NCBI GenBank assembly: GCA_944326175.1
Contig: CALVCY010000098.1
Coordinates: 1-40,503, forward strand
Length of the DNA stretch: 40,503 bases
Source: an uncultured Erysipelotrichaceae bacterium
GTDB lineage: Bacteria > Bacillota_I > Bacilli_A > Erysipelotrichales > Erysipelotrichaceae
Reading direction: 5' to 3'
The translations under genes and the position numbers were made by a program. Positions 650-40,441 of the stretch are shown here, in pieces. Below the pieces are notes generated by a model, which saw only the letters and a list, made by a program, of their open reading frames with translations, was not told where the DNA came from and did not search any database. Each line of letters starts with the position of its first letter. Within the stretch, counting starts at the first letter, position 1.

Positions 650-676
650 ATGGTCCGACCATGATGGTCGAACCAT
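650..676 (-). terminator. dxs terminator made of two tandem copies of the 13-bp palindrome
   Basis: Two bases past the dxs stop lie ATGGTCGAACCAT (664-676) and ATGGTCCGACCAT (650-662), one base apart (plus-strand spelling). Each is a palindrome, and the two also pair with each other with one mismatch. On the minus strand TTTTCTGTT follows, so the pair probably acts as a transcription terminator. Confidence 0.6.
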
Positions 677-678
677 AT

Positions 679-2526
679 TTACAATGTGCTGATCCACTCA
701 TCGATCCTGGAGTAATCGATATGGTATGCACTTTTAAGTCGAGCTGTTTGACCATGGGTGACATACACATCATCGATGCCCACGCGGGTCAAATGGATGC
801 ATCGATTCATTGAATTGGCATATTCTAAGATCGCACTGCCTAATCCACCGGCTAAAATATCTGGTTCATACACCAATATGGGTAAGTGAGTATCGAACAA
901 CTGATCCAACATCGATTCATCCAATGGTTTGAAAAAACGAGCATTGATGACGTGGATATGGTTGGAACCATAATAATCTCGGATCTTGAGCACATCATCC
1001 CCATAAGTGATGATGATGCCTTTGGCATCATCGGCACTAAACCATTCCCAACTGCCCACAGCAATGGGTTTTCCATCATCTTTTTTAAATGGAACGGATC
1101 CTCTTGGAAAACGGATCGCAAACGGATGCTGTTGGTTGAAACCACATTTCAATAGTGCCATCGCTTCGGCCGCATCTTTGGGTTGAGAAAGGATGATATT
1201 GGGCAAAGAACGCAATATGGAAATATCGAATACCCCATGATGGGTCGCGCCATCTTCCCCTACTAATCCGGCACGATCGATCCCGATCACTACGGGTAAG
1301 TCCATTCGACAGATATCATGGTTGATCTGGTCGTAACACCGTTGTAAAAACGAAGAATAGACATCCAAAAACGGTCGTTTCCCACCCAATGCGATCCCTG
1401 CTGCCAATGTGGCGGCATGCTCTTCCGAGATCCCCGTATCGAAACTACGATCGGGATATCGCGCAAAAAAGTCATCCAATGCAGAACCATGGATCATGGC
1501 GGGTGTGATGGCGACGATATTGGGATTATCCTTGGCTAATATCGAAAGATCATCCGTGATGGTCTTGGACCAGGATTTATATCCGATCGGGGTGGAGACC
1601 AACGCTTTACCGGTCAATGGATCAAATGGTCCAAGACCATGATAAACGCCGATCGTATCGGCTTCACAATAGGAAACCCCTTTGCCTTTCGTGGTCAACA
1701 CATGGACGACGACCGGTCCATCTTGTTTTTCTTTGGCTACGGTAAGGGTTTGGATCAGATCACGGAAATTGTGACCATCCACTGGACCAAGATAATCCAG
1801 ATCGAATTCGCCAAAGATCCCAGACTGGACCACGGCATCCTTGAAGGCATTTTTGATGGTGGTCAACGATTCTAACGCACTGTTGCCGTATTTATGGTTA
1901 CGTAACCAAGACTTTAGATCCTTTTTGACATTGGTGTAGCCTTTGGAAGAACGTAATTTGGCGAATGCTTTGGTCAGACCACCGACATTTCTGGAAATGG
2001 ACATATTGTTGTCGTTGAAGATGATGATCATGTTTTTCTTCAACTGACCGATATGATTGAGTGCTTCCAACGATTCACCACTGGTCATCGATCCATCACC
2101 GACTACAGCGACCACATTGTAATCGTCGTGGTTGAGATCACGGTCGATGGCAAAACCAAGCGCTGCAGATAATGCAGTGGATGAATGCCCGGCTTCAAAA
2201 CAATCATAGACGCTTTCACAACGTTTTTGAAATCCGCTCAATCCACCATATTGACGTAAATGGTCAAAACCATCGGCTCTGCCGGTCAATATCTTATGTA
2301 CATAACATTGATGCCCAACGTCGAATAATAATTTATCTTTCGGAAAGTCAAAGACTTTGTGTAATGCGATCGTCAATTCCACAATCCCAAGGTTGCTGGA
2401 AAGATGACCGCCGGTCTTGGACAGTTCGTCCATCAAAAAGCCACGGATATCCTTGGCTAATTCGCTACATTGTTGATTGTTCAAATTTTTCAAAAAAGAC
2501 GGATCTTTGATCGAACGAACATCCAT
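679..2526 (-). CDS. dxs: 1-deoxy-D-xylulose-5-phosphate synthase
   Basis: This is the first enzyme of the MEP isoprenoid pathway; it condenses pyruvate and glyceraldehyde 3-phosphate with thiamine diphosphate. It has 615 residues, the usual length. The thiamine diphosphate and magnesium motif is GDGSMTSGE...NDNNMSIS at about residues 142-175. The catalytic His region is GHQCYVHKILTGR, the catalytic Glu is in GISEEHAATLAAG (about 366), and the transketolase-like C-terminal half carries DRAGLVGEDGATHHG. The start at 2526 has AAAGGAAG upstream. It follows ispA by 52 bases, so two consecutive isoprenoid steps are probably expressed together with the exonuclease VII genes. Confidence 0.97.
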   Translation of the reverse strand: MDVRSIKDPSFLKNLNNQQCSELAKDIRGFLMDELSKTGGHLSSNLGIVELTIALHKVFDFPKDKLLFDVGHQCYVHKILTGRADGFDHLRQYGGLSGFQKRCESVYDCFEAGHSSTALSAALGFAIDRDLNHDDYNVVAVVGDGSMTSGESLEALNHIGQLKKNMIIIFNDNNMSISRNVGGLTKAFAKLRSSKGYTNVKKDLKSWLRNHKYGNSALESLTTIKNAFKDAVVQSGIFGEFDLDYLGPVDGHNFRDLIQTLTVAKEKQDGPVVVHVLTTKGKGVSYCEADTIGVYHGLGPFDPLTGKALVSTPIGYKSWSKTITDDLSILAKDNPNIVAITPAMIHGSALDDFFARYPDRSFDTGISEEHAATLAAGIALGGKRPFLDVYSSFLQRCYDQINHDICRMDLPVVIGIDRAGLVGEDGATHHGVFDISILRSLPNIILSQPKDAAEAMALLKCGFNQQHPFAIRFPRGSVPFKKDDGKPIAVGSWEWFSADDAKGIIITYGDDVLKIRDYYGSNHIHVINARFFKPLDESMLDQLFDTHLPILVYEPDILAGGLGSAILEYANSMNRCIHLTRVGIDDVYVTHGQTARLKSAYHIDYSRIDEWISTL

Positions 2527-2578
2527 GGCTCATGCTTCCTTTCATGCTTCAAACAAAGAATTAGAATGGTTTTAACTC

Positions 2579-3427
2579 TCAATGTTGACGTTGTATCAAT
2601 GCGTGGATGAAATCCTGTAATGGTTTAGGATCACTCAGGTGTAAGGTGGTTAAGACCAAAGAAAGTGCGTGGTCGTAATAATCCTGCATCATGGTTTGAG
2701 CCTTGGTCAAACCAAATAATGACACACTGGTGCTTTTTTCATTGCGGACGTCACTGTTATTTTTTCCTAACGTCGTTTCATCTTTGGTCACATCGAAAAT
2801 ATCATCCTGAAACTGGAAAGCGATCCCAAGATCATATCCGATATTTTCCAATGCATTGAGATCTTCATCGTGACTGCTCGCGATCCCACCTAACATCAAG
2901 GCTGCGGATAATAGGCAACCGGTTTTGTATTGATGCAGCTTCAATAACGTTTGGGCATCGATTTGGGTGTGTTCACTGGCCAAATCGATGCATTGACCAT
3001 ACACCATGCCATTGGCCATCCTGGCCAATGTGGAAGCGGCCAGTACTTTTTGATGATCATTGAGTGAAACGGAAGTGGCAATGACTTCAAATGCTAAGGT
3101 GTTGAGACCATCCCCTGCCAACGTCGCATTATCGGCACCATAGACCATATGGTTGGTGGGGACACCCCGACGCAATGTGTCATCATCCATACACGGAAGA
3201 TCATCATGGATCAACGAATAGGTATGGATGCATTCCACTGCCATGGCTAGATCATAGCTGATGAATGGATCGATGCCATAACTGGAAGTGGTATCGATCA
3301 CCAATTGGGGACGGACTCGTTTTCCACCATGTTGCAATAATGAATAGGCCATGGCATCACTGGTTTGACCAGGGTAAGGCAGTAATGCAGAAAAACGTTT
3401 TGCAATATAGCTTTCAAAATCATGCAT
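2579..3427 (-). CDS. ispA: Polyprenyl (farnesyl) diphosphate synthase
   Basis: A 282-residue all-helical trans-prenyltransferase that makes farnesyl (or geranylgeranyl) diphosphate from IPP and DMAPP, feeding undecaprenyl phosphate and quinone synthesis. The first aspartate-rich motif is DDLPCMDDD, with the two-residue insertion typical of short-chain bacterial enzymes. The second is FQDDIFD. GGKRVRP near residue 36 binds IPP. The start codon overlaps the end of xseB by eight bases (ATGCATGA), so translation is probably coupled. Product length cannot be decided from the sequence. Confidence 0.94.
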   Translation of the reverse strand: MHDFESYIAKRFSALLPYPGQTSDAMAYSLLQHGGKRVRPQLVIDTTSSYGIDPFISYDLAMAVECIHTYSLIHDDLPCMDDDTLRRGVPTNHMVYGADNATLAGDGLNTLAFEVIATSVSLNDHQKVLAASTLARMANGMVYGQCIDLASEHTQIDAQTLLKLHQYKTGCLLSAALMLGGIASSHDEDLNALENIGYDLGIAFQFQDDIFDVTKDETTLGKNNSDVRNEKSTSVSLFGLTKAQTMMQDYYDHALSLVLTTLHLSDPKPLQDFIHALIQRQH

Positions 3428-3644
3428 CGCCGTTTCCTTCTTTCTTCAATGGTTCAACCAATTCATTATATTTATTTTCATACACTTTGAGTGCGCTATC
3501 ACATGATTTCACACACTGTAGTCCTTCTTCGAATAGTTTGAATGCATCATCCAACGCAATGGAACTGTTGTTCAATGCTTCAACGATTTCACTCAGTCGA
3601 TTCATGTTCGTTTCAAAAGTTGCACTTTTTTTCTTTTCGCTCAT
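3420..3644 (-). CDS. xseB: Exodeoxyribonuclease VII small subunit
   Basis: A 74-residue, mostly helical protein with the XseB pattern: FETNMNRLSEIVEALNNSS, then LDDAFKLFEEGLQCVKSC. It binds the coiled-coil part of XseA in the nuclease that trims single-stranded DNA from both ends. The gene sits three bases after xseA and overlaps ispA by eight bases, the usual Firmicute order. Confidence 0.93.
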   Translation of the reverse strand: MSEKKKSATFETNMNRLSEIVEALNNSSIALDDAFKLFEEGLQCVKSCDSALKVYENKYNELVEPLKKEGNGDA

Positions 3645-5400: not shown

Positions 5401-5961
5401 ATGAGTGAGATTGAAACTCAAAAACCATGGCTCTATCGCTTCTTTGGTCATCTATCTACCATTACCCGTCATAAATTCTGGGTCGGGTATTATTGTTTCA
5501 AGGTCGGTTTATATAAACAAGGACTGTTCCATGATCTAAGCAAATATCATCCCAAAGAATTTTTAAACGGTGTGCGTTATTTTCAAGGCAATCGCTCCCC
5601 GATCGATAAAGAAAAAGAAGTCAATGGCGTCAGTTACGGATGGTTGCACCATATCGGTCACAATGCCCATCATTGGGAACACTTTGTGGATCTAGATCGT
5701 AAACATGATTGCTTCGTGGCATACCGCATGCCCGATCGCTATGTGCTGGAAAGCATTTGCGATCGTATGGCGGCATGCCGCATTTATCAGGGCAAACAAT
5801 ATGATAAAGCCAGTGCATTGGATTATTTCAACCATGGTAAAGATCAATATTTCATGCATGCAGATAACGCAAAACAATTTCGATATTATCTTGCTCTCAT
5901 TGCCGATGTTGGTTTCAACCAGGCGATTCCTGAATTAAAAAAACTGAATCATAAATCATAA
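5401..5961 (+). CDS. DUF5662 family protein
   Basis: A 186-residue cytosolic protein that I recognise as the uncharacterised DUF5662 family. Conserved blocks are GLYKQGLFHDLSKYHPKEF (about 39-57) and WLHHIGHNAHHWEHFVD (about 82-98), then MPDRYVLESICDRMAA. The His-Asp pair and the cluster of His residues suggest a bound metal, as in HD-type hydrolases, but this is inference. ATG 5401 is chosen because the family begins near here and a -10-like box lies just upstream; an in-frame ATG at 5365 would put the start upstream of that box. The membrane-protein gene follows after 16 bases and is probably co-transcribed. Confidence 0.8.
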   Translation: MSEIETQKPWLYRFFGHLSTITRHKFWVGYYCFKVGLYKQGLFHDLSKYHPKEFLNGVRYFQGNRSPIDKEKEVNGVSYGWLHHIGHNAHHWEHFVDLDRKHDCFVAYRMPDRYVLESICDRMAACRIYQGKQYDKASALDYFNHGKDQYFMHADNAKQFRYYLALIADVGFNQAIPELKKLNHKS

Positions 5962-5977: not shown

Positions 5978-6808
5978 ATGCAGCAATATGATAAAAAAAC
6001 AGATATCCATGGTTCCACCATGGACAAGCAACTGGACTATACCATCGGTGAGCAGGGTTTTGACCATAACGATCAAACCACATCTTTCGATCAGGATTTG
6101 GATCAACAACGTCGCACTTATTATGGTAACCGTGCTTCGACCACTAAAGACTTTGAAACCACTGTCAATGATTTATTCGACAAAGCGGTCGATGGGATCA
6201 ATACCATCTTCAATGCCGGTGTACGGGCTGGAAAGCGTGTCTATAATGACTATAAGATCCGTAGTGGATTGAATTTTAAGATTTTAGACGATGCGGAAGT
6301 GGAATTGTTGGTCGACGACCATCGGGTCTACTATAAAAATTTCCTCATCGATTTAATGATGATGTTCGCTGGGATTGCTTCGATCATGCTGATCCCCTTC
6401 GTTGCTGATTTTTCGGTATTGATCTTAGCCGCATTGGCATTATGCATGGCGCTTTTATCGATCGGGATCTATCGACTCGTCAAAGATAGTTCGACATTCC
6501 GACGCAATACCGTTCACGTGCGTGGCAAGACCGTACAGATCACACCGAAAGCCGAAAAATGGGTCAAAGAAAAAAATACATCCAATCGCAACAATATGTA
6601 TCGCAGCATTGCCTTTGCCATTTGTTGCTATATCCTTCCCCTATTTGGGATCGTTGTGGCGGTGGCTTTACCATTTACAGAATTCTTTGTGATCTTAGGG
6701 ATGATCGTTTATTTAATGGCGATCTCACTTGGGACCGGCATGTTGGTATATTACACTGGGATGAACACTCTGTATCGCAATATCCTTGAACATCGTCGAT
6801 TCCGTTGA
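5978..6808 (+). CDS. Uncharacterised membrane protein with four predicted helices
   Basis: I do not recognise this 276-residue protein. It has a polar, Asp/Gln/Thr-rich N-terminal region of about 120 residues with no signal peptide. Two hydrophobic hairpins follow: about 123-170 (LIDLMMMFAGIASIMLIPF and SVLILAALALCMALLSIGIY) and about 208-262 (SIAFAICCYILPLFGIVVAV and FFVILGMIVYLMAISLGTG). A charged loop of about 38 residues lies between them. The gene starts with a good ribosome site (AAGGGTGAC) 16 bases after the DUF5662 gene, which suggests a shared transcript. A hairpin follows the stop. Confidence 0.75.
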   Translation: MQQYDKKTDIHGSTMDKQLDYTIGEQGFDHNDQTTSFDQDLDQQRRTYYGNRASTTKDFETTVNDLFDKAVDGINTIFNAGVRAGKRVYNDYKIRSGLNFKILDDAEVELLVDDHRVYYKNFLIDLMMMFAGIASIMLIPFVADFSVLILAALALCMALLSIGIYRLVKDSSTFRRNTVHVRGKTVQITPKAEKWVKEKNTSNRNNMYRSIAFAICCYILPLFGIVVAVALPFTEFFVILGMIVYLMAISLGTGMLVYYTGMNTLYRNILEHRRFR

Positions 6809-8628: not shown

Positions 8629-9618
8629 TTAATCCTTTTGGATCTGCAATGCATCGCTTTGCGAGTCGATCAATGCATCCACATGATCCAATATCTCACT
8701 GGTATAACCATATTCAGTGAGTGCTTGATGGAAATAGGATGGTAATGGAGCGATAAAACGATGGACTTTTAGATCTTTCGGTAACGTTACACTTAAACGA
8801 TAGGCATGCAATAATTGACCTTCGACCGTATTTAATGTGGTTTTACCATACAATGGATCATTGCTGACCGGATGGTGGATAAAATCAAAATGGACACGGA
8901 TCTGATGGGTGCGGCCTGTCAATAATTTGACGGCTACCAATGTATGATGCGAAAAACGATGCAATACCGCAAACCGGGTGGAGGCGGGTTTTCCCCCTTC
9001 CACGATGGCTTGACGCAAGCGCATTTTGGGATCTTTGCCGATCGGTGCCTCAATGGAACCGGCTTGCTCATTGATGATCCCATCCACTAAAGCGATATAG
9101 ATCTTTTCATTGGTATGACCACTGAATTGATCTGCTATAAAATGATGCGCGGCATCATTTTTGGCAGCAATCAATACCCCACTGGTATCTTTGTCCAGCC
9201 GATGTACGATCCCAGGACGTTTGATGCCGTTGATGCCGGAAAGATCGCTGCAATGGTATAACAAGGCATTGACCAATGTATCTTGGGTATGTCCGGCTGC
9301 CGGATGAACCACCATGCCTTTGGGTTTATCGATCACGATGACATCATTGTCTTCATATAAGATGGTCAATGGGATCGCTTGGGGTTGGATGGTTGAATCA
9401 TCGATTGTAGGTGGTTCGATCAGGATCACATCATCCGCTTTGACTTTATAGGATGGTTTGGATGGTTTTTCATTGACCAATACAGATTGGTTATCGATCC
9501 ATAAGGCACATTGGTTGCGACTGTAGGATGGTAAAACCATCGATAAAACTTTATCTAATCGCATACCGACCATGGAATCATCGATGGTAAAGACCATCAC
9601 TTCATTGGTTTCACTCAT
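8629..9618 (-). CDS. rluD: RluD-type large-subunit rRNA pseudouridine synthase
   Basis: A 329-residue protein with an N-terminal S4 RNA-binding domain (about 15-75) and a pseudouridine synthase core. The catalytic aspartate is in GIVHRLDKDTSGVLIAAK; GRTHQIRVHF is the second family block. The start ATG 9618 overlaps the lspA stop by eight bases and has AGAAGG upstream; the longer in-frame reading would run inside lspA. The lspA-rluD pair is conserved in Firmicutes. Family members modify 23S rRNA helix 69 or nearby sites; the exact target is not readable here. Confidence 0.94.
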   Translation of the reverse strand: MSETNEVMVFTIDDSMVGMRLDKVLSMVLPSYSRNQCALWIDNQSVLVNEKPSKPSYKVKADDVILIEPPTIDDSTIQPQAIPLTILYEDNDVIVIDKPKGMVVHPAAGHTQDTLVNALLYHCSDLSGINGIKRPGIVHRLDKDTSGVLIAAKNDAAHHFIADQFSGHTNEKIYIALVDGIINEQAGSIEAPIGKDPKMRLRQAIVEGGKPASTRFAVLHRFSHHTLVAVKLLTGRTHQIRVHFDFIHHPVSNDPLYGKTTLNTVEGQLLHAYRLSVTLPKDLKVHRFIAPLPSYFHQALTEYGYTSEILDHVDALIDSQSDALQIQKD

Positions 9619-10090: not shown

Positions 10091-10702
10091 TTAACGATGC
10101 TGGTCCAACCATTCAATAATGGTCGAACCATCTCCATTATGGTAACACCAGCTGGTCAGTCCCAGTGAAGATGCCGCATCACAGTTTGCTTTCAAATCAT
10201 CGATAAACAGGCATTGGGATGCTTTCTTATCGGAATGATCCAATACATATTCGAATATTCTCAAATCTGGTTTGGCCATTTTCAGATCCGCAGAAATATA
10301 CAAATCTTTGAATCGTTGGATATAGGGAATATATTGATCCAATACTTCATGAATGCGAAGTGGTGCATTACTTAATAAGATCAGATCCATATGATGGTCT
10401 AAACCATATCGAACAACAGGAACCATATCACTATTGATGGTCAGATTATACTTTGGCCATTGAACGATTCCCTGTTTGATCAAAGGATATAACGATGGAT
10501 CATTGGTTTGATCAGCGACAGCATGGTACAGTTCATCTTCATCGATCGTCCCTTCATCCAATCGATGCCATAAATGGGAATGAAATAAATGATCGACCAC
10601 CCATTGGATCTTTTGTGGATCATCACAAATCGCTTCTAATACTGGTTCGACCGTATAATGGGCCAATACATTGCCCATGTCGAATATCAATGTATCAATC
10701 AT
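10091..10702 (-). CDS. HAD superfamily hydrolase
   Basis: A 203-residue cytosolic phosphatase of the HAD superfamily, closest in pattern to the YihX/epoxide-hydrolase-like subgroup. Motif I is IFDMGNVL near the N-terminus, motif II is LLSNAP, the lysine of motif III is in MAKPDLRIF, and motif IV is LFIDDLKANC. I chose ATG 10702, because AAGGAG lies ten bases upstream; ATG 10708 is also possible. Substrate unknown; sugar phosphates or nucleotides are usual for the family. It lies 12 bases before lspA and 26 after polC. Confidence 0.87.
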   Translation of the reverse strand: MIDTLIFDMGNVLAHYTVEPVLEAICDDPQKIQWVVDHLFHSHLWHRLDEGTIDEDELYHAVADQTNDPSLYPLIKQGIVQWPKYNLTINSDMVPVVRYGLDHHMDLILLSNAPLRIHEVLDQYIPYIQRFKDLYISADLKMAKPDLRIFEYVLDHSDKKASQCLFIDDLKANCDAASSLGLTSWCYHNGDGSTIIEWLDQHR

Positions 10703-26674: not shown

Positions 26675-26697
26675 GGAATGGTTGGTCAAACCATAAA

Positions 26698-28405: not shown

Positions 28406-29315
28406 ACAACACCTCTTTGATATGCTGTTGATCCTGATGCAATTGATGCATCAATGCATCCTTACTGTCAAATTTATGTTCATTCCGTATACGGGCGACG
28501 AATTGGATTGTGATGGTCGAACCATAGATATCTTGATCGAAGTCAAACACATTGACTTCAACGCTCAATCCATTGACATAATTGCATGTGGGATTATGTC
28601 CGATGTTAGTCATCGAGGGATAGGTGTGATCGTTTACGATAAACCATGTGGCATATACCCCGTTTAAAGGGATCAATTGATCGATCGACGGTTTGATGTT
28701 TGCAGTGGGAAAACCAAGTTGATGACCGACATGACGACCATGTACCACTTCACCTTCGATAAAAAACGGATATCCCAAGAGCGCATTGGCCGTTTTGATG
28801 TCACCTTTTTTCAATGCTGTTTCGATCCGGGTCGAAGAGATTTTGATGTCCCCATCGGTATATGGTGGAACCACCGTGATATCGAAACGACCATTTTCGA
28901 TCAAGGTGAAAGCATTGCCTTTGCCAAATTGACCATAGGTGAAGTCATAGCCAACGATCAAGGTGGTGATACCATTGGAGCGCAATAACGTTTCAAACGC
29001 ATCGATGGATAGCTGCATCACATCTTTGCTAAAATCAAGGATCAATACATCTTCGATCCCCATGGAAAATGCCAGTTCGCAGCGTTGTTTCAACGGAGTG
29101 ATATGGTAGACCAAGTCACATTTGCCCATCGTGATCCATGGATCTGGATCAAAAGTGATCAATGTCGGGATCAAATGATCCGTTTTGGCTTTTTCGATGG
29201 TTTTAGCGATCAATTCTTGATGACCCCGGTGCAAACCATCAAAATAACCGATACAGGCGCAACGGGGTTTGACCAATTTTGCAGTGGTATGATCAAAATG
29301 GATGATCTGATGCAT
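28392..29315 (-). CDS. ribF: Bifunctional riboflavin kinase / FAD synthetase
   Basis: A 307-residue enzyme making FMN and FAD. The N-terminal nucleotidyltransferase shows IGYFDGLHRGHQELI and ITFDPDPW; ISSTRIETALKKGD is the KMSKS-like block. The C-terminal flavokinase begins GEVVHGRHVGHQLGFPTANI. ATG 29315 overlaps the truB stop (TAATG) and has AAAAGGGGG upstream; the longer in-frame start at 29336 would put that site inside the gene. truB-ribF is a conserved Firmicute pair. Confidence 0.95.
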   Translation of the reverse strand: MHQIIHFDHTTAKLVKPRCACIGYFDGLHRGHQELIAKTIEKAKTDHLIPTLITFDPDPWITMGKCDLVYHITPLKQRCELAFSMGIEDVLILDFSKDVMQLSIDAFETLLRSNGITTLIVGYDFTYGQFGKGNAFTLIENGRFDITVVPPYTDGDIKISSTRIETALKKGDIKTANALLGYPFFIEGEVVHGRHVGHQLGFPTANIKPSIDQLIPLNGVYATWFIVNDHTYPSMTNIGHNPTCNYVNGLSVEVNVFDFDQDIYGSTITIQFVARIRNEHKFDSKDALMHQLHQDQQHIKEVLYAHR

Positions 29316-30148
29316 TACCATAACCCCCTTTTGCAATGATACAAACCATCATCTTTGCGTTGGTATACCGCAATGATCGAACCATGATGAGCAATAAAGA
29401 CCATCGATGCATCATGATCCAATGCAATGGTTTTACCATGGTAAACCGCAGTTGGATCATCCACATTTACAACAGGTATGGTTGGATCTAAAACATCAGC
29501 GATATCGATCGAACGATCACTATTAAAATGATCCAAAGACTGTGCATTTTCCAATACCAGATCACCGATCTGTGTTCGCACCAACGATGCCATGGCACCG
29601 CAGTTATTCAAGCGATGTGCGATATCTTCACAAAGATTGCGCACATACGTCCCACCACTGACTTCAAAACGGACCGTGATGGGATCTTCATTGATCAATA
29701 CCGCATCGTAAACTTCGATCCGTTTGGGTTTTAGATCGACCGTTTCATGATTTTTGGCATAGTCCATCAGTTTGCGACCATTGACTTTTCGAGATGACAC
29801 CATGGGTGGATATTGGTCTTGAACACCGATACATTGATGAACGGCTTGGTTCAATTGGTCGATGGTATAACCAACGATTTTACTGGTATTGACCACTTCT
29901 CCCCAGATATCCTTGCTTAATGTATCACTCCCAAGAGCGATCGTCGCTTCATAAAATTTATGGTTGTGTTCACAATAAGGCAGGTATTTGGTGGTTTTAC
30001 CACATAACACGATCAACAATCCGGTCGCGTTGACATCCAACGTACCGGTATGGCCGATCCGTTTTTCACCACAAAGTTTACGCATCTTCGCCACCACATC
30101 AAAACTGGTATAACCATAGGGTTTATTGATCAAATACACCTTATCCAT
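29315..30148 (-). CDS. truB: tRNA pseudouridine-55 synthase
   Basis: A 277-residue enzyme that makes pseudouridine 55 in the tRNA T-loop. The catalytic Asp is in GHTGTLDVNATGLL (about residue 39). YPPMVSSRKVNGRKLMDYA and FEVSGGTYVRNLCEDIA are family blocks. No ribosome site precedes the start; a TATAAT box with an extended TG lies nine bases upstream. Confidence 0.96.
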   Translation of the reverse strand: MDKVYLINKPYGYTSFDVVAKMRKLCGEKRIGHTGTLDVNATGLLIVLCGKTTKYLPYCEHNHKFYEATIALGSDTLSKDIWGEVVNTSKIVGYTIDQLNQAVHQCIGVQDQYPPMVSSRKVNGRKLMDYAKNHETVDLKPKRIEVYDAVLINEDPITVRFEVSGGTYVRNLCEDIAHRLNNCGAMASLVRTQIGDLVLENAQSLDHFNSDRSIDIADVLDPTIPVVNVDDPTAVYHGKTIALDHDASMVFIAHHGSIIAVYQRKDDGLYHCKRGLW

Positions 30149-31168: not shown

Positions 31169-34100
31169 GACTTACTCCCAATCGAAGTTTGACCATGGTC
31201 GAACCATGGATGTATATGGCGTCATCCGTATCATTTTCATCAAATTGACCCAATGGGAAAATGAATTGCTGATGGATGCCACCTCCGGCAAAAATGACCG
31301 GGGTCGATTCATAAAGGTAATGTGTTTCTGAATCATTGAACGCCTGTAACGGCATAAATGCGATCATCGATGGATCATAATGATCCGTGATCATCAATCC
31401 ACTATCCAATTGTTGGATGGATCGACGTAAACGATCAAGACGCATCCGACTGCTCGCGGTAAATACCATACCTGGTTTCAATTCATAAGCAACATTGGTG
31501 TAATATGCTTTCGCAAAACACGTTTTTTCCATCTCAAATGGAATGAATGGATCTGCGATGCGTCGATTACTATCATGGATCCTGTCTAACTTATCAAAGT
31601 GATAGAGCGCAATCGGGGCATCCAGTCCACTGGCATAACCAAAACCCGGTTTGGTATCACTGACATGCTTCAATGAAGAAAAGAACAAGCTTTTGATAGT
31701 GATATCACATTGTGCATCCACTAAGGTTGCATCAAACGTTGTAAAATTGCGCAATATTGCGCCATTGCCATGATGCATGGTCAATATCATCCGTATGCTT
31801 TTTTGATTATCCAATAATATCAATAACTCATTCATATTGGGATTTGAACGGACCAGATCATCCACACCATCAATGACCAATATCACACTTTCCATCTTTA
31901 CCTTGACCAATGTGGTCAATACCATTTCGATTCGATTGATATCCATACTATGGATACATTCACATCCATCGATGGCAACATTATCCGATATCACCACCAC
32001 CAATGCATCGTCAAACTGACGGGCATGATCCAATTGTTCAAAAACGCCATAGATCAAATTGGTACAAAACCGTGTACCACCAACAAACATTAAGCGAGAA
32101 AATGCCATGGTCAAACCATAAGTACAAACGCTCATTGTGGACAGATCATCATATTCTCCAAATCGTATGGTTTGATCTTGATCATCATCGATGATGAAAT
32201 CCCGTACCGAAACAGGTGGTTTCAACAACCATTGCAATGGTGCATACGCCTTTTTGATGATGGGAATGATGGTATCCATATAAGTATTTTGGTTTTTGAT
32301 CAAGTGAATCTGTCGCGTGGTCAACCGCGTCAGATCCATGATCGAACCTTCGATATTGATATGGTCTGGATCGTAACAACCGTGTAGATAAAAACTTTGA
32401 CCATGGATGATCCCTTGATCTTTGACACAATAAAATTCTCCGGGTAGTTTTAACTCCGCAGCCATTGGTGAGTTGAGCATTTCCATCGAATCCGCCCTTT
32501 CATTCACTTTCAGACAAATTCGAAAACGCGTATTGGCCAATATCTGATCATTGATCACACCATTGGGTTTTTGTGTGGAAAGGATCAGATGGATCCCTAA
32601 TGAACGGCCGATGCGCGCCAGCGAAATGATCGCATCGATGAATTCGGGTACCTGCGCCTTTAATTCCGCAAATTCATCGATCAATACCACCAAATGTGCC
32701 ATAGATGGTAATGATGGATCATGGATACATAAATTCCGATATTGATCGATCCCATTGATGGCACTACCGATTTTTTGGGTCGCATCCAATAGCATCTTTT
32801 GGCGTTTGCGGGTCTCATAGGTCAATGCTGCCAAAAAACGCGTGACATCATTGATCGAAAGATTATCCAATGTCCCCACATAATGCGGCAATGCACTCAA
32901 TTGACTGGCCAAGGCACTGCCTTTAAAGTCGACCACCAGAAAATTGACCTTTTGTGGACTGTAACGTAAAGCCAATGAAACCATCAAAGCCAGTGCACAT
33001 TCACTTTTTCCACTGCCGGTGGTCCCGGCCAATAACCCATGCGGACCATCCCCGCTTTCGGATAAATCGAGCATGAACAATCCGTGTTCATCCATGGCAA
33101 AGCCAGCTTTTAATGCAATGGATGAATCATTCGCTTGGCAAATTTGGCGATAATGCTCAATGGATATGGGTAACCATTGATTCGCAGATAGAATATCCAT
33201 TTCTTGTATTAACGGTGGGAGTGTGGGAAACCAATGATCGATCAGTGTGGATAATGGAATGGTGGAGGATAATGGTTCGACCATATAGTTTTCATTTGTG
33301 GTCGGACCATAGACTTTCAATCGATCATCATCCAATACCAGAGCCACATCGGCGGGAAGATCCCCTTGATTTAGATAAATAACGATCGCATCCATGGACT
33401 GATCTAAATATATCTGAGAAAAAACGATCAATCGATATTCGCAATGCTGCGCATATTGATAGAAACTCGCTTTATCAAAAAAGACCAGCCATTGCGCTTG
33501 ATCAAATGTATATGGATTGCTGAATAATTCCATATGATCTTTGAGAAAAGATGGATGGATCAGGTAAGCAATCTTGATTTGATCATAGGCATAATTGGTG
33601 ATCAGTTGGATCACGAACAAACGATACAGGTGGTTGGAACCATCGATGAGTTTGATCGTATCTTCAACCGTAAGATCCATGACTTTTCCACTTTGGGCAT
33701 AACATAACGCTTGCTGGTATTCACACAAACGCTGATAAAGCAAAGGTTGGGTCATGTATTGATCGACACCATCGATCACGAATCCTGTATCTACTTGGCC
33801 ACTTCCAAGACGGATAGTCAGTTCATTACAGTCTTTGGTATACGCATGGACCATGGTCGTATCAAACTGTTCGATCAAGGTAGCACTGGTTGGATAAAAC
33901 GCATCCAGATTGGATTTGAATCGGGCATAAGCGGCTTCCCCTTTTTGACGCATGGCACTCCATTGCAACTCAAAATCATCAAATCGTTTTTTCGCCGCCG
34001 CTTTTGCCCGTCTTTTTTCAAACAATCGGTTCAACGGTTGAAAAATCAAGGTGGATAAGATCAACACCATTGGTAGGACCATCGACGGTAATGAATCCGA

Positions 34101-34880
34101 TAAAGCATATCCTTGCCAATAGCGTTGGTAGGCCATCAGTGCCGCAGAAGCAAAAGAAGCGATCCCCATGATCAGCATCGGCCCCATGGTCACCCATATC
34201 GGCACATGAAATGATGGTTGCTCCAAAAAAACATTAGGGATCGTTTGTTTGAGGGTAACGGGAATATAATGACGGGTATGTTGATGGATGCTATGGGTGT
34301 GGATCAAAGGATACACTTGATTGGCCAATAACGTGGAGGGTTGATCCGATAAGTGAACCGTGATCCGATCAGAATTCATGATCGAAAGGCTATGATCATA
34401 AAAAATCATGGTCAAACCATCGATATCCACAACATCATAATCTTGAAAAGTAAGATCATCATATTGATGATTGACACTGATAAACGCACCATGGACGGTA
34501 TGATCGGATAAATGGATATAACCATGCTTCGGTGCGATCCATGGTAAATCAATGACGATATCATTATCGATATCACTTCCAATGGAGATCATCACTTGAT
34601 CGATCACGTAACTATTTCCATTCAACGCATAGTGGTCATCATCCACACAATGGATCGTGATGCGTTTTTCGTCGATCAAATAGATCGACGCATGCTGATC
34701 AGTTAACGGTTGAGTGCTGTAAGGCGTCAAAGGGATATCGGAATGCAAATTGATCATATCCGTGATCGGATCATAGTGAAAATGTAAGGTAACATCAACT
34801 AGATCAAGAAATTCGTCGGGATGGGTCGCATCGATCGTTGGAAGGATATGGGTGGCATTGGCGTAATATACGATGATCAT
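31140..34880 (-). CDS. essC: EssC-like FtsK/SpoIIIE ATPase of a type VII (ESX-like) secretion system
   Basis: A 1246-residue membrane ATPase, shorter than the roughly 1480 residues of Staphylococcus EssC. An FHA-like region (ISIGSDIDNDIVIDLPWIAPKHGYIHL-type block, about 97-125) is followed by two helices (about 230-255 and 265-290). The first motor domain is intact: GTTGSGKSE (about 617-625), VDFKGSAL, LVVLIDEFAELK (about 728-738) and STQKP. The second (about 880-1080) keeps a Walker B-like VILVIDGVDDL, but its P-loop reads GGTRFCTN with no lysine. The last 160 residues are a short remnant or replacement of the third domain. The start overlaps the lipoprotein stop (ATGA). Confidence 0.88.
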   Translation of the reverse strand: MIIVYYANATHILPTIDATHPDEFLDLVDVTLHFHYDPITDMINLHSDIPLTPYSTQPLTDQHASIYLIDEKRITIHCVDDDHYALNGNSYVIDQVMISIGSDIDNDIVIDLPWIAPKHGYIHLSDHTVHGAFISVNHQYDDLTFQDYDVVDIDGLTMIFYDHSLSIMNSDRITVHLSDQPSTLLANQVYPLIHTHSIHQHTRHYIPVTLKQTIPNVFLEQPSFHVPIWVTMGPMLIMGIASFASAALMAYQRYWQGYALSDSLPSMVLPMVLILSTLIFQPLNRLFEKRRAKAAAKKRFDDFELQWSAMRQKGEAAYARFKSNLDAFYPTSATLIEQFDTTMVHAYTKDCNELTIRLGSGQVDTGFVIDGVDQYMTQPLLYQRLCEYQQALCYAQSGKVMDLTVEDTIKLIDGSNHLYRLFVIQLITNYAYDQIKIAYLIHPSFLKDHMELFSNPYTFDQAQWLVFFDKASFYQYAQHCEYRLIVFSQIYLDQSMDAIVIYLNQGDLPADVALVLDDDRLKVYGPTTNENYMVEPLSSTIPLSTLIDHWFPTLPPLIQEMDILSANQWLPISIEHYRQICQANDSSIALKAGFAMDEHGLFMLDLSESGDGPHGLLAGTTGSGKSECALALMVSLALRYSPQKVNFLVVDFKGSALASQLSALPHYVGTLDNLSINDVTRFLAALTYETRKRQKMLLDATQKIGSAINGIDQYRNLCIHDPSLPSMAHLVVLIDEFAELKAQVPEFIDAIISLARIGRSLGIHLILSTQKPNGVINDQILANTRFRICLKVNERADSMEMLNSPMAAELKLPGEFYCVKDQGIIHGQSFYLHGCYDPDHINIEGSIMDLTRLTTRQIHLIKNQNTYMDTIIPIIKKAYAPLQWLLKPPVSVRDFIIDDDQDQTIRFGEYDDLSTMSVCTYGLTMAFSRLMFVGGTRFCTNLIYGVFEQLDHARQFDDALVVVISDNVAIDGCECIHSMDINRIEMVLTTLVKVKMESVILVIDGVDDLVRSNPNMNELLILLDNQKSIRMILTMHHGNGAILRNFTTFDATLVDAQCDITIKSLFFSSLKHVSDTKPGFGYASGLDAPIALYHFDKLDRIHDSNRRIADPFIPFEMEKTCFAKAYYTNVAYELKPGMVFTASSRMRLDRLRRSIQQLDSGLMITDHYDPSMIAFMPLQAFNDSETHYLYESTPVIFAGGGIHQQFIFPLGQFDENDTDDAIYIHGSTMVKLRLGVSHDDLHPSVA

Positions 34881-37036
34881 AGACTGAGTCGAACGATGAT
34901 ATTGATGGCTGTACTGTATTTGCCATCCTTACTGGATATGGTGATCACTGCGGCTCCTTCCTGAATACCATTGATCAAACCATGTGAATCCACGGTGGCA
35001 ACAGTTGGATTGTTACTGGTGTAGACCAGATCTGCCATGGTGATATCATTGGGGATTCCGATCAATTCCAATTGGTGTGTATTTCCTTTATCCAAAACAT
35101 AACTGTATTTGTTCAATGTGATCTTTTCATAATCTTTGATCTTATTGGGTTCGGTTTTATGTATGGTTCGAGATCCACGCGTACAGGATTCAACCATCGT
35201 TCCATTTTCCAAATGCACCGTCAATCCAGGAAACAAGGGTGCATTCGAAGCATTGAAGATCTCCCATCTATGGTTCAAACCAAATCGGGATAAAACGGTG
35301 TCACTGGAATTGACCACCACATTGAGCACCCAATGTGCCGATAAATCGGTACAGGTCAATACATCATCCACTTCACTGCTGATCTCATCGGCCATATCTC
35401 CACTAGCAGCAATGGTCGTTACGGTGTGATTGTTATTGTCATCATAAAGATGAGCCGTGACACTGGCCGTGGCTTTAACCCCACCATCCAAACCGACATC
35501 CATCAGATCCATGTTCATCAGTGTCAATCCTGTTTTGACACCGGCCAATGCATAGGCAGTGCCTTTCAATACGGCATCCACATCATGATCATGATCAGAA
35601 ATGATTCGAAACAGTCCGTTTTTATATTCGAATCCAACATCATGATCATGATCCAGTTTCAATTCCAAACGGCCATCGGCACTCAATCGCAGTTGGATTT
35701 GCATTTTTATCGTAGCAGTCGGGATTTGTGGGATCGGTAGATGAATGGTCGCAATGGGGATCATGGTTTCACCAAGGACTTTCTTGGTTTGGTAATTATT
35801 GAACAGTTTTTGGATGATGTTATCTTTGGTGATACCATTTAGATCCGCAAACAATCGTTCATACTTACCGATACGCACGGATAACGTTTGCAATGAACTG
35901 GCTCGTAATTCGAATTTAGCATGTTCAATGGTGAAACCATGGGTATCCCAGATGACCACGGGTTTGATGTTATACAATTTGAACGATCCGCGAATCGATA
36001 GATTGTCATTGATGTTTTTGGTCAAATTCACCGTAATGGATGAACCGGAAATGGAATAATTGCAGACAAACCCATCAAATGTCTTTTGATGGGTCATTGC
36101 CAGTGGTTCAACCACATATTGTGCATCATTGTCCAATGGTACCAATGATAGATCATCCTGATCAAACGATTCAAACTCGATGATCGCATCTTCCAAAGAC
36201 ACCTCTTCGTCATAAACGATACTGCCTTCCTCGACCACTTCAAAATAGTCGATTGGTCCGATCGTTACCGTCTGATATTCTTCCATGATCGTTTCAGATG
36301 GATATTGTTGGCTGATCGATTCATTGACGCCATTTGTTACCGATTCGACCTGTCCACTTTGTGTCAAACCCGAATCATCGGTATATGTCACGATATCATC
36401 CACTGCCACTTCCTGTGTGGCAGGTATCGTTAACGACGTGGTTGACTCATTTTCTTCCACCGCGATGGGCGTGACCGTTTGAATCGCAATATCATCTACA
36501 AATTCCAAATCACTTTGCTCTGTTCGATCCTGATGGTCATAATAGGCAATGGTCTTATCCAATAATGCCAGTGCTTGCGACCGATCGATCGCTTCATTGG
36601 GATCAAAACAATTCCGTTTATCCAACGTGAACAATCCAAAATTGACTGCCGCTTGAATATAATCAGCAAATTGCGCTTGATCGGCATCATTGAAATCCGC
36701 GTTTACCGGTTCAAGACCGGCAAGATTGACCAACGTATATGCGGTCCATTCACGTGTCAATTCTTTTTGTGGATCATAGGGTGCACTGGTCGGCAATATC
36801 CCCCATTCTACAGCCGTTTGCGTCGAACGAAAGTATGGGCTGGATTCATCCACGTTGATAAAATACGGCTTAGTCGTAGTGGATGGTTCAATCTGCATAT
36901 TGGAAATGACCGTATCCATCCACTCGCCAAGGCTCATGGTGTCGATCGATTGGGATGTGCAACATACACATCCCAACAAGATCACACCACATAGCCATAG
37001 TTTGAAACTATACCGTAAAACTGCTCGCATTCGCAT
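34877..37036 (-). CDS. Lipoprotein with SLH-like repeats and a C-terminal Big_2-type domain
   Basis: A 719-residue exported protein. The N-terminus (basic start, hydrophobic core, LLGC with the lipid cysteine at 23) is a lipoprotein signal. Residues about 50-170 look like two SLH repeats (YFRSTQTAVEWGILP and DFNDADQAQFADYIQAAVNFG blocks). An acidic middle region and a long beta-rich part follow, ending in a Big_2-like domain (about 640-719; NNPTVATVDSHGLINGIQEG). I chose ATG 37036 for GGAAA nine bases upstream and the lipobox distance. It overlaps the WXG100 gene before it and essC after it, so it belongs to the ESX-like operon. Its role, as substrate or envelope component, is unknown. Confidence 0.8.
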   Translation of the reverse strand: MRMRAVLRYSFKLWLCGVILLGCVCCTSQSIDTMSLGEWMDTVISNMQIEPSTTTKPYFINVDESSPYFRSTQTAVEWGILPTSAPYDPQKELTREWTAYTLVNLAGLEPVNADFNDADQAQFADYIQAAVNFGLFTLDKRNCFDPNEAIDRSQALALLDKTIAYYDHQDRTEQSDLEFVDDIAIQTVTPIAVEENESTTSLTIPATQEVAVDDIVTYTDDSGLTQSGQVESVTNGVNESISQQYPSETIMEEYQTVTIGPIDYFEVVEEGSIVYDEEVSLEDAIIEFESFDQDDLSLVPLDNDAQYVVEPLAMTHQKTFDGFVCNYSISGSSITVNLTKNINDNLSIRGSFKLYNIKPVVIWDTHGFTIEHAKFELRASSLQTLSVRIGKYERLFADLNGITKDNIIQKLFNNYQTKKVLGETMIPIATIHLPIPQIPTATIKMQIQLRLSADGRLELKLDHDHDVGFEYKNGLFRIISDHDHDVDAVLKGTAYALAGVKTGLTLMNMDLMDVGLDGGVKATASVTAHLYDDNNNHTVTTIAASGDMADEISSEVDDVLTCTDLSAHWVLNVVVNSSDTVLSRFGLNHRWEIFNASNAPLFPGLTVHLENGTMVESCTRGSRTIHKTEPNKIKDYEKITLNKYSYVLDKGNTHQLELIGIPNDITMADLVYTSNNPTVATVDSHGLINGIQEGAAVITISSKDGKYSTAINIIVRLSL

Positions 37037-39066: not shown

Positions 39067-40053
39067 CTATTCGTGTGCATCACATGGATAGACCACACCA
39101 GCGGATTTCCGGGCTTTTTCCAGATAGGATAAAACCAGTAAAGAACGTTGGTTCCATTGATCGACCGTGGTCGAATCATGAGAATCGATGGCAGATTTGA
39201 AATCTTCGATCTCATAACGCATGTGATATTCATCCTGATAGTTTTCATCGATCAGGGAATTTTTGGATGTAATAGAAATATGATGCATGCGGCCACTGGA
39301 TCCACCATCGATGATGGCAGTGGCTTTCTCCCCTTCAATGGTAAAACCATAGGGAGCGGCACAGTCTTTGGCACCGATCAGGGATGCCTTGAACGAACCA
39401 TAGTCCATGATGATCATCCCACTGGTATCGATACCGTTATGTCCTAAATTGGCCAGATAATCGAATGATTTGGGTTTTCCGAATAATTCGATCATTAAAT
39501 ACAGATTGTAGATATTGATATCCACCAATGCCCCACCTTCCATTTGTGGATTGAACACATTGGGGATCTCACCATTCAAATAGGCATCATATTTACTGCT
39601 GTATTGGGAAAAATTGGCATGGATGATGCGGATATTGCCTAAAAGATCCATTTTGGATTTGAGCCATTTCAGGTTCTGGGAATGCATGGATGTGATGGCT
39701 TCCATGATCAATACATGGTTGGTTGTGGCAACATCCATCAAATGTTGATACTGTTCAACTTTGGCGCTTACCGGTTTTTCCAAGATCACATGCTTGCCAT
39801 GATTCAATGCATCCAATGCCTGTGGATAATGCAGACTGTTGGGTGAGGCGATGTAGATGGTATCGATCTGATCGGATGAGAATAAGGTGGTCAGATCATC
39901 TGTATAGTGGTCGATGCCATGTTTTTTGGCAAATGTTTTGGCTTTGTCTAGATTCCTGGAATACACCATGTTGATCAAATCTGGATCAACTTGTTTAGCA
40001 CTTTCAATGAACAGATCCACGATGGAACCGCTGCCGATGGTACCGATACGCAT
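39067..40053 (-). CDS. Gfo/Idh/MocA family oxidoreductase
   Basis: A 328-residue NAD(P)-dependent oxidoreductase. The N-terminal Rossmann fold begins MRIGTIGSGSIVDLF; IASPNSLHYPQALDALNHGKHVILEKPVS holds the EKP motif with the catalytic-region lysine. The C-terminal half has the usual alpha/beta fold, with GALVDINIYNLYLMIELFG. The substrate is unknown; most relatives oxidise sugars or inositols. It sits between rpmA and obgE, a place normally without such a gene, and shares a transcript with obgE. Confidence 0.9.
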   Translation of the reverse strand: MRIGTIGSGSIVDLFIESAKQVDPDLINMVYSRNLDKAKTFAKKHGIDHYTDDLTTLFSSDQIDTIYIASPNSLHYPQALDALNHGKHVILEKPVSAKVEQYQHLMDVATTNHVLIMEAITSMHSQNLKWLKSKMDLLGNIRIIHANFSQYSSKYDAYLNGEIPNVFNPQMEGGALVDINIYNLYLMIELFGKPKSFDYLANLGHNGIDTSGMIIMDYGSFKASLIGAKDCAAPYGFTIEGEKATAIIDGGSSGRMHHISITSKNSLIDENYQDEYHMRYEIEDFKSAIDSHDSTTVDQWNQRSLLVLSYLEKARKSAGVVYPCDAHE

Positions 40054-40085
40054 AAATAATCCTCCTTCACGGTATGGTTACAACC

Positions 40086-40113
40086 ATCATAAAAGAAAAC
40101 GTCTTCTTGGCAA
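40086..40113 (-). promoter_or_regulatory. Promoter of the oxidoreductase-obgE unit
   Basis: On the minus strand TTGCCA (40108-40113), a 16-base spacer and TATGAT (40086-40091), each five of six to consensus. It lies inside the rpmA terminator region. A palindrome copy (40074-40087) covers the expected start of transcription. Confidence 0.55.
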
Positions 40114-40134
40114 AGACTTGTCCAACAAAGACGT
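40091..40134 (-). terminator. rpmA terminator
   Basis: On the minus strand ACGTCTTTGTTGG and CCAAGAAGACGT pair with a small bulge around an 11-base loop, then TTTTCTTTT. It ends the rplU-prp-rpmA transcript. Confidence 0.75.
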
Positions 40135-40156
40135 CCACTTTTTTATGGTTTGACCA

Positions 40157-40441
40157 TTAAGCCTGCGGATAAACGGAGACTTTTTTCTTGTCACGGCCAA
40201 GACGTTCGTAACGCACGATGCCTTCAGCTGTGGCAAACAATGTATCATCCCCACCCCGACGGACATTTAATCCCGGGTGGATCTTGGTTCCGCGCTGACG
40301 ATAGATGATGGAACCGGCCTTGGTGAATTGACCATCAGCCTTTTTGGCACCTAAACGTTTACTGTGGGAATCACGACCGTTCTTGGTGGAACCAACACCT
40401 TTTTTGGAAGCGAAGAACTGGATATCTAATACAAATTTCAT
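40157..40441 (-). CDS. rpmA: Ribosomal protein L27 (bL27) precursor
   Basis: A 94-residue protein. [20 protein letters not shown] carries the N-terminal extension of Firmicute L27 that ends in QFFA and is cut by Prp, exposing the A/S-KKG tail that reaches the peptidyl transferase centre. The core blocks [25 protein letters not shown] and [13 protein letters not shown] are typical. ATG 40441 is preferred over an in-frame GTG nine bases upstream, because AAAGGGTAGG gives proper spacing. Confidence 0.97.

Follow-up and report, generated by a model that had tools for sequence, protein, structure and literature searches.

A window of 40,503 bases from an uncultured Erysipelotrichaceae bacterium (95% coding by a simple gene caller) carries many copies of a spaced palindrome, TGGT-N3/4-ACCA, whose N3 form is the kind of operator bound by FadR-subfamily GntR regulators. 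We propose, with a probability of roughly 70%, that what was once the operator of one local GntR regulator turned into a site spread over the genome under weak selection, and that the protein acts like a nucleoid protein. The data suggest a local gene switch turned chromosome-wide DNA-binding protein in one lineage.

The proposed mechanism is as follows. A FadR-subfamily GntR protein (winged HTH and FCD domains) would recognise TGGT-N3/4-ACCA as a dimer. In relatives, the gene of this regulator is preceded by one or two operators, and several relatives carry more of them near a second operon; in the window lineage, the same operator would have spread over the whole chromosome, genes and intergenic regions, to about 2 sites per kb, held by a weak and fairly uniform per-site advantage (scaled S about 2–4). 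Thousands of positions would then be taken up by the protein, in many cases by dimers side by side on one helix face, 21 bp apart, which would make it a nucleoid (chromatin) protein with sequence specificity. We infer its occupancy of the dispersed sites in the cell, and its nucleoid function from site density alone; for the effect of binding, compaction or insulation of transcription is our guess.

Highly iterated palindromes were reportedly described in cyanobacteria by Robinson et al. in 1995, and to our knowledge there is no agreed reader or function for them. A search of the open-access literature found neither a GntR protein described in a nucleoid role nor a palindrome of this kind reported from Erysipelotrichaceae. 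If the more far-reaching reading given below is true, a highly iterated palindrome would gain a named reader protein, and the origin of a nucleoid protein would be caught in the act together with a genome-wide code. The system would open two questions to direct tests: by what route a transcription factor comes to structure the chromosome, and how a force that is weak and uniform can write a code across all genes, amino acids included; the lineage offers a specific protein to test and relatives with the likely ancestral state.

Sites in the window

ATGGTN3ACCAT occurs 20 times in perfect form in the window; dinucleotide shuffles give an expectation of 0.16 and never more than 2 copies, and a second-order Markov model gives an expectation of 0.40. 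The preliminary description had counted 19 such sites and six with a four-base centre; the over-representation is real and larger than it claimed, the numbers being 20 and eight. The core is present in 80 copies (54 N3 and 26 N4), 69 of them wholly within called genes. A TYG centre, as originally given, is too narrow: Y..R fits best, with CNA/TNG and TNA strongest, and is itself imperfect (TNT, ANA and CNT centres, 20–24-fold; CNG, just 12-fold).

The sites, all given without strand, were compared with the closest relative of the window, the Erysipelotrichaceae metagenome-assembled genome G001 (84% nucleotide identity). N3 sites conserved in G001 lie at 650..662 (ATGGTCCGACCAT, after the dxs stop), 5640..5652 (ATGGTTGCACCAT), 21594..21606 and 34408..34420 (both ATGGTCAAACCAT), 22439..22451 and 27210..27222 (both ATGGTTTGACCAT), 28513..28525 (ATGGTCGAACCAT), 29427..29439 (ATGGTTTTACCAT) and 39338..39350 (ATGGTAAAACCAT). 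Half-sites are conserved at 664..676 (ATGGTCGAACCAT, 14 bp from the 650..662 site), 31195..31207 (ATGGTCGAACCAT), 32107..32119 (ATGGTCAAACCAT), 35928..35940 (ATGGTGAAACCAT) and 40145..40157 (ATGGTTTGACCAT). One half-site base differs at 9528..9540 (ATGGTAAAACCAT), and the sites at 6009..6021 (ATGGTTCCACCAT) and 22396..22408 (ATGGTTTTACCAT, intergenic) are not conserved.

ATGGT-N4-ACCAT is conserved at 2260..2273 (in dxs), 10394..10407, 20473..20486 and 40074..40087 (intergenic); its half-sites are conserved at 958..971 (in dxs), 9584..9597 and 14606..14619 (in polC), and the intergenic copy at 17936..17949 differs in one half-site base. Some sites form groups. Three N3 sites at 19–20 bp spacing occupy 10100..10151 (cores at 10101, 10120 and 10140), of which the first and third are conserved and the middle one (13-mer 10119–10131) is not. 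Of three intergenic N3 sites in 26656..26716 (cores at 26657, 26683 and 26705), the first is not conserved and the other two are. A tandem pair of cores 21 bp apart in 29862..29896 combines a conserved N3 site (29863) with an N4 site (29884) lost in G001, and in 33272..33310 the first N3 site (13-mer 33272–33284) is lost and the second (core 33299) is conserved.

Genome-wide distribution and lineage limits

Counts in G001 cover 1.50 of about 1.6 Mb (1,501,138 bases in 96 stretches, those masked or site-free, perhaps mobile DNA or misbinned, being left in), with 1,338 genes called on the 1.50 Mb by a simple codon-score script. The genome-wide count, set beforehand as the refutation test, came out far above expectation: 836 copies of ATGGTN3ACCAT stand against 1 copy of the reversed pattern, and the core is found 2,021 times with N3 and 906 times with N4, against 37–64 times at spacings 0, 1, 2 and 5. 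Chance or base composition is ruled out by the shuffle and Markov expectations in the window and by the reversed-pattern control in G001. The core sites touch genes in 2,518 cases and are intergenic in 409 (204,349 of the 1,501,138 bases being intergenic), which gives about 2 per kb in each.

The centre preference in G001 is graded, from 47-fold for CNA and 40-fold for TNA down to 1.8-fold for GNC, and in this resembles graded binding affinity. Pairs of core sites 21 bp apart are in excess. Even spacing of sites is not seen in G001: the spacing is irregular (CV 1.6), so there is no even coat on the chromosome.

Selection for an RNA or DNA mini-hairpin with a loop of 3–4, for example in terminators or mRNA structure, would account for strong enrichment at spacings 3 and 4 alone and for the frequency of sites 0–75 bp past stop codons (3.2–6.1 per kb in G001, in profiles of starts and stops omitting genes with too little intergenic space). 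Terminator stems had indeed been claimed at 26704 and 664: the former holds, the 26704–26716 site forming the stem of a hairpin that resembles an intrinsic terminator, with a run of seven T after it on the minus strand, and the latter is weaker, as the pair 650–676 after the dxs stop codon has only TTTT downstream. The hairpin explanation is nevertheless extremely improbable, given that 2,470 of the 2,927 G001 core sites lie wholly within genes, that intergenic sites number 335 for N3 and 74 for N4 (43-fold and 9.5-fold over control spacings), unlike a simple loop rule, and that 21-bp pairing points to double-stranded DNA.

A similar density was not found in two overlapping samples: among 293 further genomes of the order, none had more than 23 ATGGTN3ACCAT, and among 394 further genomes of the class, none had more than 6 ATGGTYNRACCAT. 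Enrichment in relatives thus extends to G001 and to none of the others searched. The highly iterated palindrome described here lies in a phylum unrelated to cyanobacteria and, across the searched genomes, is confined to a single lineage. Phages as carriers of the site were rejected: when viral contigs were scanned for a pair of YNR sites at a distance of 21 bp, three contigs matched, none at genome-like density. A xenogeneic silencer is not favoured first because the low-GC and defence islands of G001 are without sites.

Conservation, saturation and strength of selection

Between the window and G001, four-fold degenerate bases differ at 5/109 positions in half-sites, 14/29 in the spacer and 1,851/4,284 outside sites; for intergenic bases, the figures are 5/83, 12/34 and, elsewhere, 321/1,655. 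Window sites are conserved in G001 in 41/54 (N3) and 19/26 (N4) cases, versus 37/102 for control spacings, and G001 sites are conserved in the window in 41/60 and 19/29 cases, versus 37/101. This conservation is greater than codon constraint explains.

Where synonymous codons permit an N3 site in G001, it is realised at 1,618 of 2,191 possible coding places (74%), whereas control spacings are realised at 131/784, 111/836 and 110/770 (13–17%). Codon usage or protein constraint alone was rejected by 20 synonymous shuffles of 1,268 coding sequences (those with low score or N excluded), which gave 294 ± 13.5 N3 sites versus 1,618 and 229 ± 10.7 N4 sites versus 818; at control spacing 2, the shuffles gave 29.6 versus 33 observed, and at spacing 5, 21.6 versus 42 observed, a small excess. 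The peptide contexts themselves are more numerous at gap 3 (2,191 versus 770–836 at control spacings). A more far-reaching reading, in which a local metabolic repressor became a chromatin protein of defined sequence specificity and went on to rewrite its host, with the operator at about three quarters of permitted coding places and amino acid sequences shifted to accommodate it, has in our view somewhat less than an even chance.

Scaled S is 1.8–3.2 from ln(OR) by frame and spacing and 3.5 (2.4–5.0) from divergence, two concordant estimates of about 2–4 per site. In the top codon-adaptation decile of G001, which partly contains the reference set since the reference is a ribosomal-protein stretch, the number of sites per 1,000 codons declines from about 8 to 2.7. 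The realised fraction drops merely from 0.79 to 0.59, so this fall mostly reflects fewer peptide contexts, and avoidance of sites under high expression was rejected. The lowest decile is site-poor too (4.0 per 1,000 codons; realised, 0.65).

A weak uniform force would also fit a drive by DNA uptake or recombination, as in Neisseria and Haemophilus, in which transformation favours site-carrying fragments. Accumulation in tolerant places, the 2.7–2.8-fold excess of the near-miss half-sites TGAT, TGGC and GGGT in G001, and atypical islands without sites agree with this; DNA uptake signals had also been suggested in the preliminary description. We consider the uptake explanation very improbable, as ComEC (PF03772) was not found in G001 and three relatives (0/4, the G001 assembly being possibly incomplete; 10 of 14 control genomes positive), the site is a regulator's operator in relatives, and it is a spaced palindrome, a form that uptake sequences do not have according to the cited part of PMC1939737.

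HIP1 and an abundant nucleoid protein's site, two other likenesses drawn at the outset, fit in density, within-gene presence and synonymous conservation; a methylase, drawn likewise, fits poorly. In a HIP1-like scheme, the palindrome would be generated and preserved by a DNA methyltransferase together with methyl-directed repair; the cited part of PMC4390886 links HIP1 to methyltransferases and gives a proposed model based on repair. Use of both N3 and N4, the graded centre and the 21-bp pairs misfit a methylase. Moreover, strong matches in the three families covered by the G001 search (PF01555, PF00145 and PF02384) are confined to two stretches without sites (DISARM-like and type I islands), which disfavours the methylase; a weak PF02384 match (25.2 bits; cut-off 20.4) lies in the site-bearing contig C48. 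We regard this scheme as improbable.

A FadR-subfamily GntR protein as candidate reader

Five GntR matches were found in G001, and just one is FCD-type: the candidate reader, with a GntR winged HTH (46.4 bits; cut-off 27) followed by FCD (27.2 bits; cut-off 24.3). Two of the other four carry UTRA, and two are 130–132 residues long, one of them GntR alone in Pfam and the other judged by reading only. The window does not include the candidate gene, which is therefore presumed to be present in the species that the window comes from. Directly upstream of it in G001 are two sites, GTGGTCTGACCA-AC-TGGTCAGACCAC, ending 9 bp before the ATG.

The predicted model of the homologue P0001, which is without 12 FCD-domain residues of the G001 protein, matches structures of FadR, LldR and NanR with modest TM-scores (0.26–0.64 among the 50 matches listed). 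According to parts of PMC4494728, the FadR subfamily binds TKGT/ACMA boxes typically 3 and also 2 nt apart, 4 nt is typical of HutC-type proteins, and in E. coli the Arg of LPSER and a recognition-helix Arg each contact G; the LldR consensus is TGGTNNNACCA in the cited part of PMC9600882. The LPSER Arg is kept in the G001 protein, which has Lys where alignment by eye places Arg45 of the recognition helix, and G001 has two HutC-type proteins. The recognition helix reads SKTIVHDGL in G001 versus SKSAVHFAM or SKSAVHLAI in three footprinted homologues aligned.

Several observations speak against the GntR protein as reader: these recognition-helix differences and an identity of only 27–38% to 18 homologues; the strong enrichment of N4, whereas FadR-type boxes are described at 3 or 2 nt; and the low rank of CNG in G001, two homologues without an upstream site and the irregular spacing of sites.

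The operator before homologous genes

The 18 homologues of the G001 protein occur in relatives with ordinary site counts. TGGTN3ACCA stands before the homologue's gene in 16 of them and ranks top of all 4-mer spaced palindromes tested (gaps 0–12) upstream of homologues; the two without it have the weakest matches. The homologue loci hold 25 sites in 5,400 bp upstream versus 16 in the other 145,397 bp (start codons were assigned by script; at L206 and L213, a site overlaps or follows the start so assigned, still ahead of the protein match). Among loci of other GntR matches, 27 of 28 are without the site, the exception being a locus in G001. CNG centres are common before homologues, yet are only 12-fold enriched in G001. 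The density had been judged too high for an ordinary repressor, and it is high; but the sequence is the operator of an apparently ordinary local GntR regulator in relatives, which probably represent the ancestral state of one regulator and few operators.

Alternatively, the dispersed sites may be held by a different DNA-binding protein that is abundant in the lineage and prefers the same sequence, the GntR protein only sharing the operator. GntR binding to the sites is a prediction, the cited part of PMC4494728 describes neither N4 spacing nor 21-bp pairing for FadR-type proteins, and at about 2 sites per kb chance alone will now and then put two into a single promoter. We consider this unlikely, as the operator precedes GntR homologues where the site is otherwise rare, and a G001 screen of GntR, the three methyltransferase families and, by eye, small basic proteins found no second candidate.

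The homologue in the relative G157 has two desaturase-like neighbours and one NADH-oxidoreductase-like neighbour (NCBIfam matches below curated cut-offs). As ancestral target genes in G001 these were rejected: tblastn of the three against the G001 stretches (1.50 of about 1.6 Mb plus L224, a stretch added after the counts and also used for reading one GntR gene) gave no hit at 1e-5.

Comparison with known systems

ParB/parS, Noc, MatP and Lrp are nucleoid- or chromosome-organising proteins with sequence-specific sites. They share with the GntR reader proposed here dimer-type sites spread over the chromosome; the sites here, where binding is predicted, are far more numerous and of higher specificity than is known for those proteins. 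Neisseria DUS and Haemophilus USS have a density of about one per kb. Like the present sites, they lie partly in genes, and they are thought to accumulate by drive (cited part of PMC1939737); unlike them, they need DNA import, for which no channel was found in G001.

With HIP1, discussed at a density of about one per kb in the cited part of PMC4390886, the palindrome shares its restriction to some lineages, a strong excess across the genome, seen here against shuffles and Markov model in the window and against the reversed pattern and control spacings in G001, and an equal presence in coding and non-coding DNA. It differs in sequence, in its flexible 3–4 bp spacer, in its 21-bp pairs, in occurring outside cyanobacteria, and in having a candidate GntR-family reader and no methylase link found. 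Known FadR-subfamily members control a restricted set of promoters. Thousands of operator copies, mostly in genes and including N4, set the present case apart from FadR, PdhR, LldR and DgoR, with which the G001 protein shares GntR followed by FCD and the operator TKGT-N3-ACMA before its own gene.

Abundance of the palindrome in the window and its closest relative

The window carries the genes of a Firmicute, among them dxs, xseA, polC, fakA, purA, obgE, truB and ribF. Within the species-level genome set, the best dxs match (94% amino acid identity) lies on CALVGN010000027.1 of an uncultured Erysipelotrichaceae MAG, hereafter G001, and all subsequent matches are at most 64% identical. G001 and the window share 84.1% nucleotide identity across 40.2 kb aligned. 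A segment of ~4.4 kb is present in G001 and absent from the window at ~207–246; here the two species differ by an insertion or a deletion.

The preliminary description reported a highly over-represented palindrome, and the counts bear this out: the window contains 20 copies of ATGGTN3ACCAT vs 0.16 expected. With the four-base spacer included, sites with A...T flanks number 28 (20 N3 and 8 N4), and all core sites, TGGT-N3-ACCA or TGGT-N4-ACCA (below, N3 and N4), number 80. Against a third-order model, two further sequences prove over-represented in the window: CATCGATG, with 40 copies where 15.7 are expected, and GAATTC, with 32 where 14.9 are expected.

Enrichment in relatives holds for G001, which carries 836 copies of ATGGTN3ACCAT and a single copy of the reversed pattern, but not for the 293 other genomes of the order that were counted, each of which has 0–23 copies. 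Eleven other genomes reached via their dxs contain 0–12 each, and among 72 dxs loci the 13-mer occurs in one, that of G001 itself. ATGGTYNRACCAT is found 532 times in G001 and at most 6 times in each of 394 other genomes of the class. As a genomic phenomenon, the site belongs with the highly iterated palindromes.

Site structure and chromosomal distribution

The 1,501,138 bases of G001 contain 2,021 N3 and 906 N4 cores, and other spacings of the same half-sites are rare (39, 64, 37 and 47 copies at 0, 1, 2 and 5 bases). The outer base pair favours A...T 26-fold vs control spacings. The centre favours Y..R (CNA 46.8-fold, TNA 40.1, TNG 38.6), followed by TNT (24.2), ANA (20.0), CNT (19.8) and CNG (12.2), with GNC lowest (1.8); this graded preference looks like affinity. 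Equal half-sites tend to lie 21 bp apart: TGGT to TGGT, 393 cases (18 bp, 132; 24 bp, 184). Distances from ACCA to TGGT of 14 and 13 occur 380 and 298 times, respectively. Lone half-sites contribute in part to this signal. Since 7 + 14 = 8 + 13 = 21, pairing keeps two helix turns constant with either spacer.

Most sites (2,470 of 2,927) are wholly within called genes, and density is ~2 per kb in genes and intergenic DNA alike. The N3:N4 ratio is 335:74 in intergenic DNA and 1,686:832 in genes. Around genes with enough intergenic space, density rises to 3.3–4.8 per kb 25–175 bp upstream of starts and to 3.2–6.1 per kb 0–75 bp past stop codons, and falls to 1.2–2.3 per kb from −25 to +100 around the start codon. 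Hairpins may explain the post-stop enrichment and some intergenic sites, but they leave the bulk, inside genes, unexplained.

Among the long stretches devoid of sites are low-GC DNA, two islands (one DISARM-like, one of the type I restriction kind), part of the ribosomal-protein genes, and V-type ATPase genes. One of them, contig C25 of G001 at ~4,200–20,000, spans 15.8 kb and encodes homologues of DrmA, DrmD and DrmMII, together with a type III-like helicase, a HerA-like protein and N6_N4 methyltransferase pieces. Another, contig C3 at 1–6,398, is low in GC, and its genes include one for a type I methyltransferase and one for a Fic-like protein. The site appears to be absent from recently acquired DNA, so that in this lineage its density could help to recognise DNA that is foreign or misbinned.

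The proposal that the palindrome is a methylase site fares poorly here: the strong matches of G001 to the three methyltransferase families sought fall in site-free islands, leaving one weak match besides them, and a methylase accounts for neither the two spacers nor the 21-bp pairing. We consider a methylase very unlikely.

Maintenance of sites

Synonymous codon shuffles of G001 gave on average 294 N3 and 229 N4 sites, vs 1,618 and 818 observed. Where synonymous choice allows an N3 site, it is realised at 1,618 of 2,191 coding places (74%), and N4 at 818 of 1,117; control spacings of 6, 9 and 12 reach 131/784, 111/836 and 110/770. Peptide contexts compatible with N3 are 2.6–2.8 times as frequent as at these control spacings, so amino acids have shifted too.

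Conservation between the two genomes goes beyond codon constraint, as the fraction of four-fold degenerate bases that differ is 5/109 in half-sites, 14/29 in spacers and 1,851/4,284 elsewhere. G001 retains 41 of 54 N3 and 19 of 26 N4 sites of the window (control spacings, 37/102); conversely, the window retains 41 of 60 and 19 of 29 (control spacings, 37/101).

Scaled selection per site (S) was estimated as a log odds ratio, treating site and non-site as states in an assumed mutation-selection-drift balance. For N3 it equals 3.2, 3.0 and 2.7 in frames 0, 1 and 2; for N4, 1.8, 2.5 and 2.9. Intergenic excess yields 3.8 (N3) and 2.3 (N4), and the divergence ratio, from separate data, 3.5 (2.4–5.0). 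Under the balance model, the force on the sites is therefore weak and fairly uniform, and they do not resemble a set of thousands of regulatory elements under strong selection. A DNA-uptake drive, also suggested in the preliminary description, could spread sites in this way, but ComEC was not found in G001, and we regard such a drive as very improbable.

A candidate GntR-family reader

TKGT-N3-ACMA palindromes are described as typical operators of FadR-subfamily GntR proteins (PMC4494728), and the LldR consensus in use is TGGTNNNACCA (PMC9600882). G001 has five GntR matches, one of which (contig C27, 11405–12154) combines GntR and FCD domains; two others carry UTRA, one has GntR alone (132 residues) and one is 130 residues long. 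The GntR-FCD gene follows infB and rbfA, and GTGGTCTGACCA-AC-TGGTCAGACCAC precedes its start codon, with 9 bp between. Close homologues occur among metagenome proteins: P0001–P0003 (78–83%) and P0004–P0006 (51–56%). When the structure model of P0001 (pLDDT 86.9, pTM 0.73) is compared with known structures, it matches those of GntR type, FadR-DNA complexes among them, although TM-scores are modest; P0001 is missing 12 residues within the FCD domain.

Homologues (E <= 1e-12; 27–38% identical) occur in 18 of the 293 other genomes of the order. TGGTN3ACCA lies just upstream of the protein match in 16 of these 18 loci, which are not all independent, as their pairwise upstream identity reaches 0.99 (median 0.60). 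In 12 of the 16 it is doubled, typically near −135 and −25. An unbiased count of all 4-mer spaced palindromes with gaps of 0–12 ranks TGGT-N3-ACCA top (16/18); the runner-up, GGTT-N1-AACC (12/18), is contained in it. Upstream centres are mostly Y..R (TTA, CAA, CTG, CAG and others), though CNG ranks low among such centres in G001. Of 28 loci around other GntR matches, 27 lack the core, and the one that has it lies in G001.

The sequence pattern, its conservation and the footprint upstream of the homologues are what the data show; because the apparent specificity is identical, we infer that the GntR-FCD protein of G001 probably occupies the dispersed sites. Its altered recognition helix and the unusual N4 spacing count against this reading; another DNA binder with the same site preference is an unlikely alternative reader.

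The simplest account is a local regulator whose targets were lost and whose site spread under a weak per-site reward. The ancestor would have possessed a regulator that had just a few operators; in the lineage of G001 and the window its local targets would have been lost, and the operator sequence would have spread chromosome-wide, driven by a weak force rewarding each bound site. Our first guess is that this reward reflects a nucleoid-protein role. Among the titles and abstract openings listed by searches of the open-access literature, none names a GntR operator that numbers in the thousands.

The divergent neighbour of the homologue resembles CrtI-family oxidoreductases in the three relatives examined, below curated cut-offs, and three neighbours of one homologue had no tblastn match in the G001 stretches searched. 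Extra TGGTN3ACCA copies lie 2.1–3.9 kb downstream in 8 of the 18 loci. In four loci (L206, L207, L211 and L216) the same operator pair recurs 2.3–3.9 kb downstream, close to a second desaturase-like gene in the two annotated ones (L207 and L211). This recurrence suggests a small classical regulon in the relatives.

A viral contig (IMGVR_UViG_3300032212_000013) carries four TGGTN3ACCA within ~330 bp (702–1031), two of them 21 bp apart, and none elsewhere in the 12 kb examined; the cluster could serve a GntR-like protein as its operator or as a partition site.
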